From positions 1 to 64,000 of the forward strand of contig JAEUVF010000012.1 in NCBI GenBank assembly GCA_016787265.1: 64,000 nucleotides of DNA, in the 5' to 3' direction. Under the pieces are notes generated by a model, which worked only from the letters and a program-made list of their open reading frames with translations, ran no database searches and was not told the DNA's origin. The stretch is from Flavipsychrobacter sp. (lineage in GTDB: Bacteria > Bacteroidota > Bacteroidia > Chitinophagales > Chitinophagaceae). A program made the position numbers and the translations under genes. Positions 11,098 through 23,755 of this stretch are shown in pieces; the first letter of the stretch is position 1, and each line of letters starts with the position of its first letter.

Positions 11098-12378
11098 TTA
11101 ATAATCACGCATCAGGTTAAAGGTGCCCACCAGTTTGCTTGATCCCAGGTATTCTCCATTGCCACTTTCGGTATTGGTTCTGCCTGCTTCCTGAATAAGC
11201 AGGGTACCGCTTATTTTCTGACCAACTGATCCGGCTTTCGTAATGATGATGTCTCCCGAACTTACCGTGCGACCGTCATTATAGAAACTCTGAAAAGCCT
11301 GTTGAGGTGAAATCCCGGTTGGTTCAAAAAGGAATATTGTATTATTTTCATTCCAGGAGTAGGTGCCGGTTGCATTTTGTTTCCAGGTCATACTTCCCAT
11401 GCCATCCGGTCCTTCCCAGGACATGCCCATACTGCCATCACTGTCAATTCCCAAATCAACCATCTCATCATTGAAGAGATATTGTTTATCACCAATCCAG
11501 ATGCTTAAACCGGTAACATCTGGCTGAACGAATACTTGTGCGCTAAGCGGTTTTTTTGAGGTCGTCATAAATAGCAGAATTGTAACCGGATTAATTTCCG
11601 GTAATTCATAATCAGCCGTTTTATATACTGCCGCACCTCCCTCCGGATGCAGGGTTCCGGTTCCTGGACCTCTGGACAAAACCTCCCATTTTTCAACCAG
11701 TCCGGGATCCAGCAAATATTCTTCTGTCATGGCCATTGAGCTTGCACCATTACGGAATAAATTACAAAGATCAGTTTGCGGAACCACGTGAATCGTTCCA
11801 ATTGCAGCAAGCTCAACTGAAGTGTTGGGTCTGACAATACTGTAAACTGGTGTTAGTTTTACCGGTGTCGCCAATGCGCAATCTCCTCCCCTGATAGATA
11901 TTGAAACATACTTTTGTGCGATGTTGATACTTCTGCCAGCCTGTAACCACCAAACGCCAGAAGAATCCTGTAAAGACATACCCAATGTGCATTCGGGGTT
12001 CAGGCTAAGCGAATCGGCCAGATCCCGATAAGAATAATTCACAGATACAGGTGCATTTAATTCTTTATTGGTTGAAATCCGGAATGCAGGACCAATCGAC
12101 CCCGGACTGGTATTGGAAATTTCCTGAACGGTCAGTTGCGTGCCAGTTTCAGCAGCACCTACGGGTACTTCAATTTTAACAAGACCGTTATTTACTACAT
12201 AATTACCACCGTTTGGGCTAATTGTAAAAGTGCTTGGACTACCAATTGCTTCCCCTCTGTTCCGAATGGCTGTAACAGGTAGATCTTTTTCCATATTTTC
12301 TGATTTGGAGCAACTTGTAATAATTACTACACTTATGGATAGAAGCAGCAATAAAAGGAAAGGATGTTTGATATGCAT
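11098..12378 (-). CDS. Lipoprotein with ZU5-like N-terminal domain, function unknown
   Basis: The protein is 426 aa from the ATG at 12378 (MHIKHPFLL). A longer frame back to 12483 has no signal peptide at its start and overlaps the regulator gene, so the inner ATG is preferred. The lipobox is VVIITSC. Residues about 45-110 (FTISPNGGNYVVNNGLVKIEVPVGA, AETGTQLTVQEIS) resemble the ZU5-type beta domain found in many Bacteroidota surface lipoproteins. The rest is beta-rich with a repeated Trp/Gly-rich part (SWEGPDGMGSMTWKQNATGTYSWNE broken over residues 330-355). No catalytic motif seen. It lies between glycan-degrading genes but no role can be assigned. Confidence 0.7.
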   Translation of the reverse strand: MHIKHPFLLLLLLSISVVIITSCSKSENMEKDLPVTAIRNRGEAIGSPSTFTISPNGGNYVVNNGLVKIEVPVGAAETGTQLTVQEISNTSPGSIGPAFRISTNKELNAPVSVNYSYRDLADSLSLNPECTLGMSLQDSSGVWWLQAGRSINIAQKYVSISIRGGDCALATPVKLTPVYSIVRPNTSVELAAIGTIHVVPQTDLCNLFRNGASSMAMTEEYLLDPGLVEKWEVLSRGPGTGTLHPEGGAAVYKTADYELPEINPVTILLFMTTSKKPLSAQVFVQPDVTGLSIWIGDKQYLFNDEMVDLGIDSDGSMGMSWEGPDGMGSMTWKQNATGTYSWNENNTIFLFEPTGISPQQAFQSFYNDGRTVSSGDIIITKAGSVGQKISGTLLIQEAGRTNTESGNGEYLGSSKLVGTFNLMRDY

Positions 12379-12469
12379 GTCAGAATGGATAAAAGGTTTA
12401 ACAGAGGCAAATCTAATTACAACCCATTCTGGCAGCCAATACCTAGTGCTAGGTATTTTTACAAATGAG

Positions 12470-13231
12470 CTAAAGCCAACCATTTTTAATAGTGAGACTC
12501 ATTAATTCAATTACACTTGACGCACCGGATTTCGAAAGAATGTTTTTTCTATGTGTATTAACGGTATGCAAACTGATGAATAAATTGTGAGCGATCTCCT
12601 CACTTTTTTGCCCTGCAACAATTAATCGCAATATTTCTTTCTCCCGTTTTGTAAAAGGGTTGTCAGCGAACTTGAAAACTTCCGGAGCCTGGACATCTAT
12701 AAAGGAAGGTTCACCTTGCAGCCCGATAAAGGAAAGCCGGGGTTTCCCATTTTCTTTTATATGATCTATATTGGTGTGAACAGCCAGTGTACGAATAAAA
12801 TTATTTTGGTCATCAAAATCAATAAGTATTGCCTGGTGTAGCAGTCGGATATAATCTCCCCTTATGTTTTTTACTCTGAAATCGTATTGAATTTTATAGT
12901 TTCCCAGCTTATGTACAGGCAGATTTTTCAGAAACTGTATGGCTGCATGTTCAAAGTTTAAATAATAGGGTTGATCGTCTGGATGGATGCTGGTCATAAA
13001 TTCCTGCATGTCAAAAGATGAAGGATAACCAAGCACCTGTTCAATAGAAGGACTTTTGTATTCAAGTTTCATCGTGGTAAAATTGAATACATAATAATAG
13101 AAATCACCTATCTGCAGGAAATTAAAAAACTTCATGAATTGTTCGGAACTAAGGTTATTGTCCAGCCTGGCATCAGGTGCTACAATTCCTTTCCATAACG
13201 AAACAGCATTATTCAGGAAGGTTTTGCTCAT
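12470..13231 (-). CDS. PAS-domain LuxR-family transcriptional regulator
   Basis: The protein is 253 aa. Residues about 40-160 form a PAS-like sensor with the PAC-type pattern (YKSPSIEQVLGYP, SIHPDDQPYYLNFE, FRVKNIRGDYIRLLHQ). The last 65 residues are a LuxR/GerE helix-turn-helix (FTKREKEILRLIVAGQKSEEIA, then SLHTVNTHRKNILSKSGA). There is no signal peptide or membrane segment, so it is cytosolic. It is divergent from the GH2 gene with 141 bases between the start codons, and may control that gene or the lipoprotein behind it. Bacteroidota have many PAS-LuxR proteins of this design with unknown ligands. Confidence 0.85.
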   Translation of the reverse strand: MSKTFLNNAVSLWKGIVAPDARLDNNLSSEQFMKFFNFLQIGDFYYYVFNFTTMKLEYKSPSIEQVLGYPSSFDMQEFMTSIHPDDQPYYLNFEHAAIQFLKNLPVHKLGNYKIQYDFRVKNIRGDYIRLLHQAILIDFDDQNNFIRTLAVHTNIDHIKENGKPRLSFIGLQGEPSFIDVQAPEVFKFADNPFTKREKEILRLIVAGQKSEEIAHNLFISLHTVNTHRKNILSKSGASSVIELMSLTIKNGWL

Positions 13232-16018: not shown

Positions 16019-16030
16019 GCAATCGGTTGA
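16019..16030. promoter_or_regulatory. LacI-family operator-like site 1 (partial match)
   Basis: GCAATCGGTTGA just after the GH2 stop codon matches 11 of 12 bases of sites 2 and 3. Alone it would be weak; it counts because of the two perfect copies downstream. Confidence 0.35.
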
Positions 16031-16218
16031 TCATTTTTATAACTGAGTCTTTCCTGTTCTCACAAACTGCGCAGAGGAGTTATTCATGTATAAATTACAC
16101 TAATTCTATTGGCTTTTGGCAAAAATACGGGGTTTGGGTAAATACGAAATATTGTCCCTTCCCTGTCATCCGGGCTATGTTATTTTTACCATAATTGAGC
16201 GATTTAGAAAAAATATTA

Positions 16219-16230
16219 GCAATCGGTTGC
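16219..16230. promoter_or_regulatory. LacI-family operator-like site 2
   Basis: GCAATCGGTTGC is a near-palindrome with a central CG, the usual form of LacI/GalR-family operators (GCAA half sites around a central CpG). It is an exact inverted copy of site 3, 176 bases away, upstream of susC. Confidence 0.6.
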
Positions 16231-16394
16231 AAATACAAATTATTTATTTATTTTAGTGCTGCATTATTTAGTACACACTCTCTGTTAGGACAAAGAGATG
16301 GATGCTGATCAGGAAAACCAGAGCTCAGGGAGACTGAATCCGGATAACACCATTGCTTGTCTAAAAACAAAAGTGTTTTTTTTGGACTTGTAAT

Positions 16395-16406
16395 GCAACC
16401 GATTGC
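16395..16406. promoter_or_regulatory. LacI-family operator-like site 3, overlapping the likely susC promoter
   Basis: GCAACCGATTGC is the exact reverse complement of site 2. It lies about 145 bases ahead of the susC start codon, between weak -33 and -7 boxes, a position suited to repression. The cognate regulator is not in this window. Confidence 0.6.
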
Positions 16407-19804: not shown

Positions 19805-21610
19805 ATGAAACGATCTGTCAATATTTTCTTACTCATCACAACTGGATTTTTTATTGTGATTTCGGGTTGTAGCAAAAAACTGGAAGAGCGTCCTTATACA
19901 GTATTCTCTACAGATTATTTCCGTACACCTGAAGGGTTACAGGCAGGCATTGCCTCTCTTTATTCTGGTATGCGTTATTTATTCGGACCAGAAGGTGCAG
20001 TAGGTATGGGCGTTGCAGGTACAGATGAATGGTCAATGGGCGATCAGGCTAGAGCGGGTGCTGCAGGTGATATGACCGCAATGTGTACTTACACCTTAGG
20101 CCCCACTACCGGAGCTCTGCTTACTCCCTGGAACAGAAGCTTTAGTAATATTAACCTCGCGAATGGATTGATTCAATTCTCACAGGAAGTGCCCATCAGT
20201 GAAGCAGAAAGAAATGTAGCTCAGGGTGAGATTCGTTTGCTGCGTGCACTTTACTATATGAACCTGGTGCAATATTTTGGTGCGGTACCGGTAGATCTTG
20301 GTGCGGGCGACCTGCAATTTAACCAGACACCTTTCCAGGGTTTCAACCGGCTGCCGATCGAACAGGTGTTTGCAAGAAACTATGAAGTGATCATTGAAGA
20401 CCTGATCTTTGCAACACAAAATCTTCCGACACGCCGCCCGGAGAATGCATTCCGGCTCTCAAAATCCGCCGCTTACCACCTGCTCTCAAAAGCGTATATT
20501 CATCGGGGTTATTCATCCGTAGCACAGCCTTCTGATTTTCAGAATGCATATGATGCAGCGATAGAAATCATCAATAATCAGGCAACCTATGGAGCCGCTT
20601 TACAGCCCTACTACGCAGATGTGCATGCAGTAGGAAATGATTATAACAGTGAGATCCTGTTTTCAATCGAACGTGTTCCCGGCAATTATGCTGCCAGTGA
20701 AGTTCCTAACCCGCAGGGAATCGGAGGTACCAAAGGAATGGATGCCAGTAATGATTTCTGCGGCGATTATACAGCTGTCCGTTCGCCATTAAAAACATCC
20801 GCTACCACACCTGTAGGTGACAGAACGGTACAGTATGGCCGTCCGATCCGTCGTTTTTGTCCTACTCCCTGGACCTACCATGTAGCATTTGCTGATAAGA
20901 AAAATGACAGCCGTTATGAAGGCACCTTCCGTACAGTATATATTGCTTCCCGTACCGTAGGTGATTTCAGGGCAGGGGTTGATACCGGTTTCGTGATGGC
21001 GCTTACCAATGAAATGGCTGATTCTATGAATGCCATTCCAAAGCCCTACCGGGTGATCGCTCCAAGAGAGTTTTACTTTATTGGTGGTTCTACTGCAGGT
21101 TCTGCAACCGAAGGAACTTCCAATATGTATCCTTCATTGAGCAAATATGAAGATCCTGCAAGAGGAGTTCCCAATTATCCGGGCGCACGTCCCTACCCGG
21201 TATGTAAACTTGGAGAAACCTACCTGATTGCAGCTGAAGCCGCTATGCAAACAGGAAGAGAAACGGAAGCAATGGATCTTATCAATGTCCTGAAGCTGAG
21301 AGCTGCCAACCGTCCGGGTTTAAGCGCTGCAGAAGTAAATCAACGTTACAATGTAATCCGGTTGACTTCTCCTTCGCAAGTTACACTTGATTTTATTCTG
21401 GATGAACGCACCCGTGAGCTTTGTGGTGAAAGCACCCGCTGGCCGGATCTGGCTGTTAGGGGAAAACTGGTGGAACGCGTGAAGTTATTCAATACGGATG
21501 CTGCTTCAGCTATTACAGAAGGTAAACACGAATTACGTCCCATCCCACAATCGCAACTCGACAGGGTTGTTGATGAAAATGCAGCCAGGTACCAGAATCC
21601 TGGTTATTAA
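19805..21610 (+). CDS. susD: SusD/RagB-type glycan-binding lipoprotein
   Basis: The protein is 601 aa with the lipobox ending VISGC (Cys about 22) followed by SKKLEERPYTVFSTDYF. The TPR-like helical core shows the usual SusD features: GEIRLLRALYYMNLVQYFGAVP in the N-terminal half, AYHLLSKAYIHRGY in the middle, and near the C-terminus ETYLIAAEAAMQTG and FILDERTRELCGE. It caps the SusC barrel at the cell surface and binds the glycan. Directly downstream of susC and upstream of xylanase, which fits a xylan uptake role. Confidence 0.95.
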   Translation: MKRSVNIFLLITTGFFIVISGCSKKLEERPYTVFSTDYFRTPEGLQAGIASLYSGMRYLFGPEGAVGMGVAGTDEWSMGDQARAGAAGDMTAMCTYTLGPTTGALLTPWNRSFSNINLANGLIQFSQEVPISEAERNVAQGEIRLLRALYYMNLVQYFGAVPVDLGAGDLQFNQTPFQGFNRLPIEQVFARNYEVIIEDLIFATQNLPTRRPENAFRLSKSAAYHLLSKAYIHRGYSSVAQPSDFQNAYDAAIEIINNQATYGAALQPYYADVHAVGNDYNSEILFSIERVPGNYAASEVPNPQGIGGTKGMDASNDFCGDYTAVRSPLKTSATTPVGDRTVQYGRPIRRFCPTPWTYHVAFADKKNDSRYEGTFRTVYIASRTVGDFRAGVDTGFVMALTNEMADSMNAIPKPYRVIAPREFYFIGGSTAGSATEGTSNMYPSLSKYEDPARGVPNYPGARPYPVCKLGETYLIAAEAAMQTGRETEAMDLINVLKLRAANRPGLSAAEVNQRYNVIRLTSPSQVTLDFILDERTRELCGESTRWPDLAVRGKLVERVKLFNTDAASAITEGKHELRPIPQSQLDRVVDENAARYQNPGY

Positions 21611-21631: not shown

Positions 21632-23755
21632 ATGCGTACATCGTATAGAATTCTAAGCCTGATCCTGCTGAGCTCGGTCTTGCTGTTTTCCTGTAAACGT
21701 GAGCTGGAGACAGGGATATTAAACAGGGGAAATTTTGATAACCGTCCTCCCGGACTTAAATCCGAATTTGATTTTCCAATCGGTACGGCTATTGGCTATA
21801 CTCCCTTTACTACCAGCAATGAGTATGCGAATATTGCCGCTTCAGATTTTGACCTGGTAACCTTTGAATACGAAATGAAACATGGAGCCATCGTTCGGAA
21901 CAATGGTAGTTTTGATTTCACAAGGGCTGATCAACTGGTCAACCTCGCACAGGCAGGTGGTTTAGGCATTTTCGGTCATACATTGGTGTGGCATCAGAAT
22001 CAGAATGCCGAATACCTGAATACGCTGACTGCCGGAGGCGGAGGCAGTAATATTGTTAACCTGATTGAAAATCCTGGTTTTGAAAATGGACTCACAGGCT
22101 GGTCAGTTGTAAACACTGGCAATCCCGCAGGCGCCTCCAAAATAGAACTGACTGCTACAGCCAGCCAGGTACGATCCGGTACTTCTGCACTCAGGGTGAT
22201 TACCGATCAGAATTATGGAACCAGTCAATGGAGAGTGCAGGCACATAGTCCGGCTTTTAATGCAAGTGCTGGTGTTACCTATACCATCTCTTTCTGGATC
22301 AAAGCGGCTACAGCTGGAGGATCTATCAGGTTATCCGCAAGTCCAACAGGAGCTGTAGCGAATGCTTACCAGGGTGATCAGGATAATATCGGAACTGACT
22401 GGACACAGGTTAGCTGGAACATCACCATGACATCCAATGAACCTAATCAGCGCATTTCCTTTGATATGGGAAAAGCAGCCAATACTTATTTCATTGATGA
22501 TGTATTGATCTTTGATCCCAATGCTCCACCACCGCCACCATTGCTGGCGAATGGCGGATTGGAAGGAGGGCTTACCGGATGGGCAGCCGTTAACACCGGT
22601 AACCCCGCAGGCTCTTCCAGCATTGCGCTGACAAATGCTCCCAACCAGGTGCGTTCCGGAACGAATGCATTGAGAATACTGGTAGATCAGAATTATGGAA
22701 CCAGTCAGTGGAGAGTGCAGGCACACACGCCCACTTTTGCAGCAGAGGCAGGAAAGACATACAATATTTCTTTCTGGATCAAAGCGGCCAATGCTGGAGG
22801 TTCCGTTCGTTTGTCAGCAGCCCCAACAGGAGCTGTAGTAAATGCATACCAGGGTGATCAGGATGGAATTGGAACTGACTGGACGCAAATCAACTGGACT
22901 TTTACCATGAATGCGAATGAACCTAACCAGCGCATTTCCTTTGATATTGGAAAAGTCGCGAACACCTATTTCATTGATGATGTCGTAATACAGGATGCGG
23001 CGGCAGCAGGTGGCGGTGGCGGCGGTAATGATGGGGTTGAACAAAAGGTAGAAGAAGCAATGAAGAACTTTATCACATCAATGATGACCCGCTATAAAGG
23101 AAAAGTGAATGCATGGGATGTGGTAAATGAACCCATGACGGAAGGAGGTGCATTACGTACAGATGCGAATACAACCGTGCCGCAGGGTGCTACAGATTTC
23201 TTTTTCTGGTCGCAGTACCTGGGTCGGGACTATGCATTTAAAGCATTTGAATATGCAAAAGAAGCTGATCCGGATGCCTTGCTCTTCATCAATGAATACA
23301 ACCTGGAAACAAGCCGGGCGAAACTGGATTCACTCATTGCCTTTGTAAAAGAGATGCGGGATCGTGGTGCTAAAATTGATGGAATTGGTACTCAAATGCA
23401 TATCTCCTGGAATACGACAAGGGCCGGAATTGATGAAGCTTTCCGCAAGCTGGCCGAAACCGGGTTGCTGGTTCGCATATCCGAACTGGATGTACGTGTG
23501 AACCCGGGTGCAAAACCAGATTTCGTTCTCACGCCACAATTTGAAGCATACCAGGCAACCATGTATGAATATGTGATTCAGTCCTATATCAAACATGTTC
23601 CGCCTGCACAAAGACATGGCATCACAATTTGGGGTATATCTGATAATCTCAGCTGGTTATTCAATGATGGAAGAGACTTCCCATTATTGTACAATGCGGA
23701 TTTTACCAGGAAAGCCGCTTACGGTGGTGTTCTTAATGGTGCCAGGCAGCAGTAG
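21632..23755 (+). CDS. GH10 endo-beta-1,4-xylanase lipoprotein with two CBMs nested in the catalytic domain
   Basis: The protein is 707 aa, with a lipobox LLFSC placing it on the outer membrane. The GH10 fold opens at residues about 45-130 (EYEMKHGAI, GHTLVWHQNQN). It is interrupted by two tandem CBM4/9-like jelly-roll modules (residues about 144-297 and 304-455) and resumes after a Gly-rich linker (about 456-465). The resumed part has the acid/base Glu500 in DVVNEP and the nucleophile Glu618 in ISELDV. An insertion of CBMs at this loop is known in Bacteroidetes GH10 enzymes of Prevotella and Bacteroides. Third gene of the susC-susD operon; it would cut xylan at the cell surface. A strong terminator follows the stop. 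Confidence 0.93.
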   Translation: MRTSYRILSLILLSSVLLFSCKRELETGILNRGNFDNRPPGLKSEFDFPIGTAIGYTPFTTSNEYANIAASDFDLVTFEYEMKHGAIVRNNGSFDFTRADQLVNLAQAGGLGIFGHTLVWHQNQNAEYLNTLTAGGGGSNIVNLIENPGFENGLTGWSVVNTGNPAGASKIELTATASQVRSGTSALRVITDQNYGTSQWRVQAHSPAFNASAGVTYTISFWIKAATAGGSIRLSASPTGAVANAYQGDQDNIGTDWTQVSWNITMTSNEPNQRISFDMGKAANTYFIDDVLIFDPNAPPPPPLLANGGLEGGLTGWAAVNTGNPAGSSSIALTNAPNQVRSGTNALRILVDQNYGTSQWRVQAHTPTFAAEAGKTYNISFWIKAANAGGSVRLSAAPTGAVVNAYQGDQDGIGTDWTQINWTFTMNANEPNQRISFDIGKVANTYFIDDVVIQDAAAAGGGGGGNDGVEQKVEEAMKNFITSMMTRYKGKVNAWDVVNEPMTEGGALRTDANTTVPQGATDFFFWSQYLGRDYAFKAFEYAKEADPDALLFINEYNLETSRAKLDSLIAFVKEMRDRGAKIDGIGTQMHISWNTTRAGIDEAFRKLAETGLLVRISELDVRVNPGAKPDFVLTPQFEAYQATMYEYVIQSYIKHVPPAQRHGITIWGISDNLSWLFNDGRDFPLLYNADFTRKAAYGGVLNGARQQ
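22061..22995 (+). repeat. Tandem duplication encoding two CBM modules
   Basis: Copy 1 is 22061-22522 and copy 2 is 22541-22995, separated by a short Pro-rich linker (NAPPPPP). Most residues match between copies, and parts match nearly base for base, for example around 22206-22245 and 22686-22725 (DQNYGTSQWRVQAH in both). The high DNA identity points to a recent duplication or to gene conversion. Confidence 0.9.

Follow-up and report, generated by a model that had tools for sequence, protein, structure and literature searches.

What controls the xylan SusCD operon in the 64,000-nucleotide stretch of Flavipsychrobacter DNA analysed here as a whole (the window)? Cell-surface oligosaccharide sensors are assumed to activate SusCD operons; neither an HTCS nor an ECF factor was found among the window open reading frames scanned against Pfam (19 + 3, including the flanking genes). 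An earlier note, made from the sequence alone, had pointed to three LacI-type operators in the susC leader (two exact copies of a 12-mer and one 11/12 match), and to a repressor gene lying outside the window. All three copies are indeed present, SusC, SusD and a GH10 protein with CBM4_9 domains are encoded downstream of them (Table 1), and the window contains no gene with a LacI domain. Divergent to the GH2-type gene that precedes the susC leader are genes (11098-13231) for a PAS/LuxR-type regulator and for a 461-aa protein that matched no Pfam family.

Table 1. Operator sites, predicted promoter elements and genes of the xylan SusCD locus (window positions)
Feature	Position	Strand	Remark
Site 1, GCAATCGGTTGA	16019..16030	+	11/12 match to the 12-mer
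Site 2, GCAATCGGTTGC	16219..16230	+	exact copy; predicted main operator; 3' half overlaps the inferred -33 element
TTG within site 2, inferred -33 element	16227..16229	+	19 bp ahead of the -7 box; spacing fixed in relatives
TATTTTAG, inferred -7 box (TAnnTTNG)	16249..16256	+	
Site 3, GCAATCGGTTGC	16395..16406	-	exact reverse complement; predicted auxiliary operator in the transcribed leader
susC, TonB-dependent receptor, 1077 aa	16550..19783	+	
susD	19805..21610	+	
GH10 xylanase-type gene with CBM4_9 domains	21632..23755	+	

Sites 2 and 3 both have the form GCAAYCGRTTGC, palindromic with a central CG, as LacI/GalR operators require. Site 3 lies 176 bp downstream of site 2 in the opposite orientation, and relatives show the same inverted layout. 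Site 1, which starts 13 bp past the stop codon of the upstream GH2-type gene, is predicted to be either a weaker auxiliary operator or a remnant. A search of the 4,547,851-base genome for the 12-mer GCAATCGGTTGC, as the same note had proposed, found it rare rather than scattered in genes (3 occurrences, 2 of them in the window; reversed control 0). The third copy (C6:294445) precedes another SusC gene, which does not belong to a xylan gene set. With at most one mismatch, the 16-bp palindrome TTGCAAYCGRTTGCAA matched only sites 2 and 3 in the whole genome; with at most two it matched 16 times (control 1), the majority of the weaker matches being inside genes. The random probability of at least two GCAAYCGRTTGC in a 543-bp leader is ∼8e-9, calculated for one leader, at equal base frequencies and uncorrected for the number of leaders.

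The susC promoter is probably carried by site 2 and not by the last site, around which weak -33/-7 boxes had been suggested: TAnnTTNG follows neither site 1 nor site 3 on either strand. It does follow site 2 (TTG, 19 bp, TATTTTAG), as the sole such composite in the genome (16219-16256). Given the -12 to -5 position of the -7 box relative to the start, as described in a passage of PMC9723704, susC transcription would begin near 16261, and site 3 would fall ∼135 bp downstream of this predicted start, inside the transcript. Among 247 oriented flanks of sites, TAnnTTNG occurred at spacing 19 in 30, against ∼0.6 in shuffles; the same flanks had 8 boxes at spacing 20, 8 at 21 and more at 22 to 24 (shuffles ∼0.4 to 0.7 per position). 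The box followed the site in 34/40 SusC leaders with a site, mostly at spacing 19-21. In a hand tally of 25 leaders with two sites it came after the susC-near site in 11, after the far site in 9 and after neither in 5; the window leader is of the far-site kind, with the box at site 2 and the inverted site 3 downstream. The operator thus overlaps a predicted promoter at site 2 and in relatives, as expected of LacI/GalR operators. The palindrome is probably not an RNA hairpin, as its fixed link to the -7 box argues for a DNA element.

The genome encodes nine LacI proteins, all outside the window and two of them on its contig, which supports the expectation that the repressor is encoded elsewhere. 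The best candidate is a 344-aa protein (C2:127417-128448; PF00356 47.7 bits, PF13377 108.3 bits, both above cut-off), referred to below as XylR, or as XylR1 where its paralogue XylR2 is also meant. Its gene is divergent to a minus-strand set of xylB, xylA, uxuA and two transketolase halves, and is followed on the plus strand by GH67, SDR, GH10, GPH symporter, GH43 and SASA-type esterase genes. XylA scored 674 bits, over its cut-off, and XylB was the best match at 295.7 against an equivalog cut-off of 380.25; the regulator is linked to xylose isomerase and xylulokinase, as is characteristic of a XylR regulon. The search for the 12-mer near xylose genes and a lacI gene, also proposed earlier, led to the gap between xylB and this lacI, which holds two near-copies, TGCAACTGATTGCA and AGCAACAGATTGCA. 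The former has TTG-N19-TATTTTCG towards xylB, arranged as at window site 2, and TTG-N23-TATTTTTG towards lacI. It speaks against the model that the operators preceding xylR in the window genome show an altered centre, CT and CA versus CC (TG or AG versus CG). On another contig of the same genome (L075:6155-10432, C5) a second lacI is divergent to SusC, with other CG-centred palindrome-like letters of the AAACGTTT type seen by eye between them; the window locus may not be the only SusCD locus of its genome under LacI control.

Orthologues of the C2 XylR are found at 98-99% in two congeners, 89% in a third and 57-74% in other genera, the nearest homologues being those of Flavihumibacter fluminis (99%) and F. 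cheonanensis (98%); by this measure the window very probably belongs to Flavihumibacter. Several orthologous lacI genes lie next to, and divergent from, the closest homologues of the window susC, separated from them by a site that is exact or has one mismatch. The occurrence in other genera of lacI directly beside xylan susC, separated by the same site, backs the LacI operator reading proposed in the earlier note. An alignment scan with XylR gave 79 loci, mostly of Chitinophagaceae (1,160,756 bases), in which the 14-bp site occurred 125 times with at most one mismatch and 59 times exactly (reversed controls 0 and 0); these loci were chosen for having XylR and are mutually related, so that counts from them are not independent events. 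At this threshold of one mismatch, a site lay within 450 bp upstream of 57/78 lacI genes and before the SusC start in 40/54 loci, and was missing from 21/78 and 14/54, respectively.

Across 39 genomes the exact 14-mer TGCAAYCGRTTGCA was found in 16 copies, spread over 13 of them (control 1). Six copies lie just before a XylR-type lacI (G009 twice, G016 twice, G018, G022), four at xylan-type susC (the window genome, G004, G005, G014), two (G021, G022) beside genes that by eye look like GH2 or SASA esterase and one in G008 at the XRE locus; three (G015, G025, G033) are without evident link. In G018, G017 and G022 the site separates lacI from an adjacent divergent gene, either susC or a GH3 gene that precedes susC (one mismatch in G017). 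Site and XylR co-occurred in 9/13 versus 13/39 genomes (P 0.0014, or 0.017 when restricted to the family). A scan of 195 family genomes for the composite GCAATCGGTTGC-N15..21-TAnnTTNG, regardless of their gene content, gave 37 matches in 36 genomes and 30/101 genera (control 1), with the window genome contributing its site 2 match alone. The 30 matches examined, including that of the window, lay before SusC (16), GH3 (4), XylB (2), XylA (1), GH43 (1) or none of these (6), and a XylR-type lacI was divergent upstream at 20 of them.

The site itself, its rarity, conservation and promoter position, and the adjacency of xylR argue for LacI operators. We consider it highly likely that the sites belong to a LacI-family xylose/xylan repressor, with the C2 protein as best candidate, and that this XylR would repress susC via site 2. 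What we infer from the sequence is that XylR binds the operators, that it represses rather than activates, which ligand it answers to, where transcription starts and what sites 1 and 3 do. In the absence of inducer, XylR on site 2 would mask the susC promoter at its TTG (-33), and housekeeping RNA polymerase would then be unable to bind there; exclusion of polymerase by the bound repressor is suggested because the operator covers this TTG, as judged from the layout and the LacI family. Site 3, and possibly site 1, would strengthen repression, either by blocking elongation or because bound dimers cooperate. XylR would come off the DNA in the presence of xylose, or of an intracellular sugar derived from xylan, upon which susC, susD and the GH10 gene would be transcribed together with xylBA. 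Because of the gene neighbours, xylose is probably the ligand that relieves repression. DNA looping is not supported, as the operators show 25 distinct spacings and no helical phasing (R 0.14 at 10.5 bp), although by hand count 20/34 pairs of operators are spaced 206 to 233 bp. The C2 protein, at 344 aa, is presumably too short for a LacI-type tetramer tail.

A different binder within the LacI family, the protein encoded at C13:229943 (XylR2), acting alone or with the C2 protein, is a rather unlikely though reasonable alternative. In a tree of 34 LacI proteins the C2 and C13 genes fall into sister groups of one well-supported 19-row clade, and their recognition helices are near-identical; in G016 an exact site precedes a XylR2-clade gene that lies beside xylB, and XylR2 and XylR1 occur in tandem in 19/75 loci. 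On the other hand, the neighbours of C13:229943 are not xylan or xylose genes (an aldehyde dehydrogenase lies upstream), and its promoter has only a two-mismatch site in the window genome and none in three congeneric orthologues. As a side observation, some of the loci L142-L201, as well as L127:12284-14458, carry XylR2 followed by XylR1 with an operator between. Activation of susC by XylR from these sites would accord with their variable positions, and some LacI-family proteins (CcpA) do activate at some promoters. We regard it as improbable, since the -33 TTG, at a fixed 19-21 bp from the -7 box, lies under the operator, so that a bound protein would block polymerase, and the same operator/promoter layout recurs at xylB and at lacI itself.

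Quite improbable, even compared with activation, is that the palindrome is the target of another regulator, such as the XRE-cupin protein or some global factor, and that its presence at xylan genes reflects shared use. This reading draws on the copy at C6:294445, which lies between an XRE-cupin regulator gene and a SusCD pair set among genes that do not look xylan-related (FAD oxidoreductase and others), and on two exact copies in G008, a genome without a XylR-clade LacI. Among congeners, however, this XRE locus keeps the site with one mismatch in G004 and G005 and lacks it in G014, G002 and G011, and 20/30 unselected composite sites have a XylR-type lacI beside them. The idea that the site marks xylan genes alone was likewise given up as not fully true, in view of the XRE-cupin locus. 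Since the 12-mer is found at an XRE-cupin SusCD and is doubled in the XylR-less G008, the site sequence may serve another protein as well. At L124:9909, too, an exact copy lies between an XRE-cupin regulator and SusCD. As for chance palindromes, GCAANCGNTTGC alone is just mildly over-represented (7 genome sites versus control 1), and yet conservation and the controls (genome, XylR loci, family scan and leader probability) refute such an origin almost completely. The C2 XylR is our preferred candidate for the repressor of susC.

LacI-type control may also be combined with that by HTCS. The site lies in the leader of the nearest xylan-type susC of G004, G005 and G014, and an HTCS gene lies beside this susC (by Pfam in G005, by eye in G004 and G014). 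In a Flavihumibacter relative (L062:14838-19410), the start of one susC has both an HTCS gene, with Reg_prop, HATPase, response regulator and HTH_18 domains, and a perfect palindrome of the LacI type. We tentatively extend the XylR model, with distinctly less confidence than for the window itself, to Chitinophagaceae at large: xylan SusCD would be run by a cytoplasmic xylose sensor pair (tandem XylR2-XylR1) and not by a periplasmic HTCS, the two proteins sharing one operator fused with the sigma-A -33 element. A cassette of ∼38 bp would have moved between susC, GH3, xylB, xylA and GH43, and some Flavihumibacter susC genes would be under double control by the added operator and an HTCS.

If the XylR model holds for the window operon, its uptake system would answer to a cytoplasmic sugar via a repressor and so be tied to metabolism, and first induction would have to come through leak or other transporters. 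Being short and defined, the predicted operator-promoter could serve as a xylose switch in Bacteroidota and would let the family-wide xylan regulon be read from sequence.

The predicted regulon is new and its kind already known; the initial reading was right in outline, and a candidate repressor is now named. XylR of Xanthomonas and Caulobacter are LacI-family repressors of xylose/xylan genes, including those of TonB-dependent receptors. At the level of the protein and its target genes they share with our system the LacI family, the xylan/xylose genes and an outer-membrane transporter in the regulon; they differ in being from Proteobacteria, with a TonB-dependent transporter without SusD. PMC12125979 mentions them in passing. 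SuxR of Xanthomonas campestris, described in a part of PMC1790865 with mutant and expression data as a LacI/GalR repressor of a TonB-dependent sucrose receptor, similarly pairs a LacI-family protein with a TonB-dependent carbohydrate receptor, but for sucrose, in Proteobacteria and with no SusD. The XylR of Bacteroides thetaiotaomicron (BT0791) has name, pathway and phylum in common with ours, and yet belongs to the NrtR and not the LacI family, according to passages of PMC3878776 and PMC4666351. UxuR, UxaR, KdgR and UxuR2, for which LacI regulons are predicted in Bacteroidota in sections of PMC3878776 and PMC5507952, are of the same phylum and regulator type but concern uronates. The main text of the LacI-regulon paper PMC4052901 mentions none of Bacteroidetes, XylR, SusC and xylan. 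In passages of openly licensed PubMed Central papers, nothing on LacI operators at xylan SusCD operons came up beyond a lacI drawn in PMC5306329. The figure legend concerned places it with xylA, xylB, susC and susD in the xylan PUL of Gramella flava, for which passages of that paper describe neither an operator nor any regulation; this PUL resembles the locus described here in gene content, by having a lacI within a xylan gene set.
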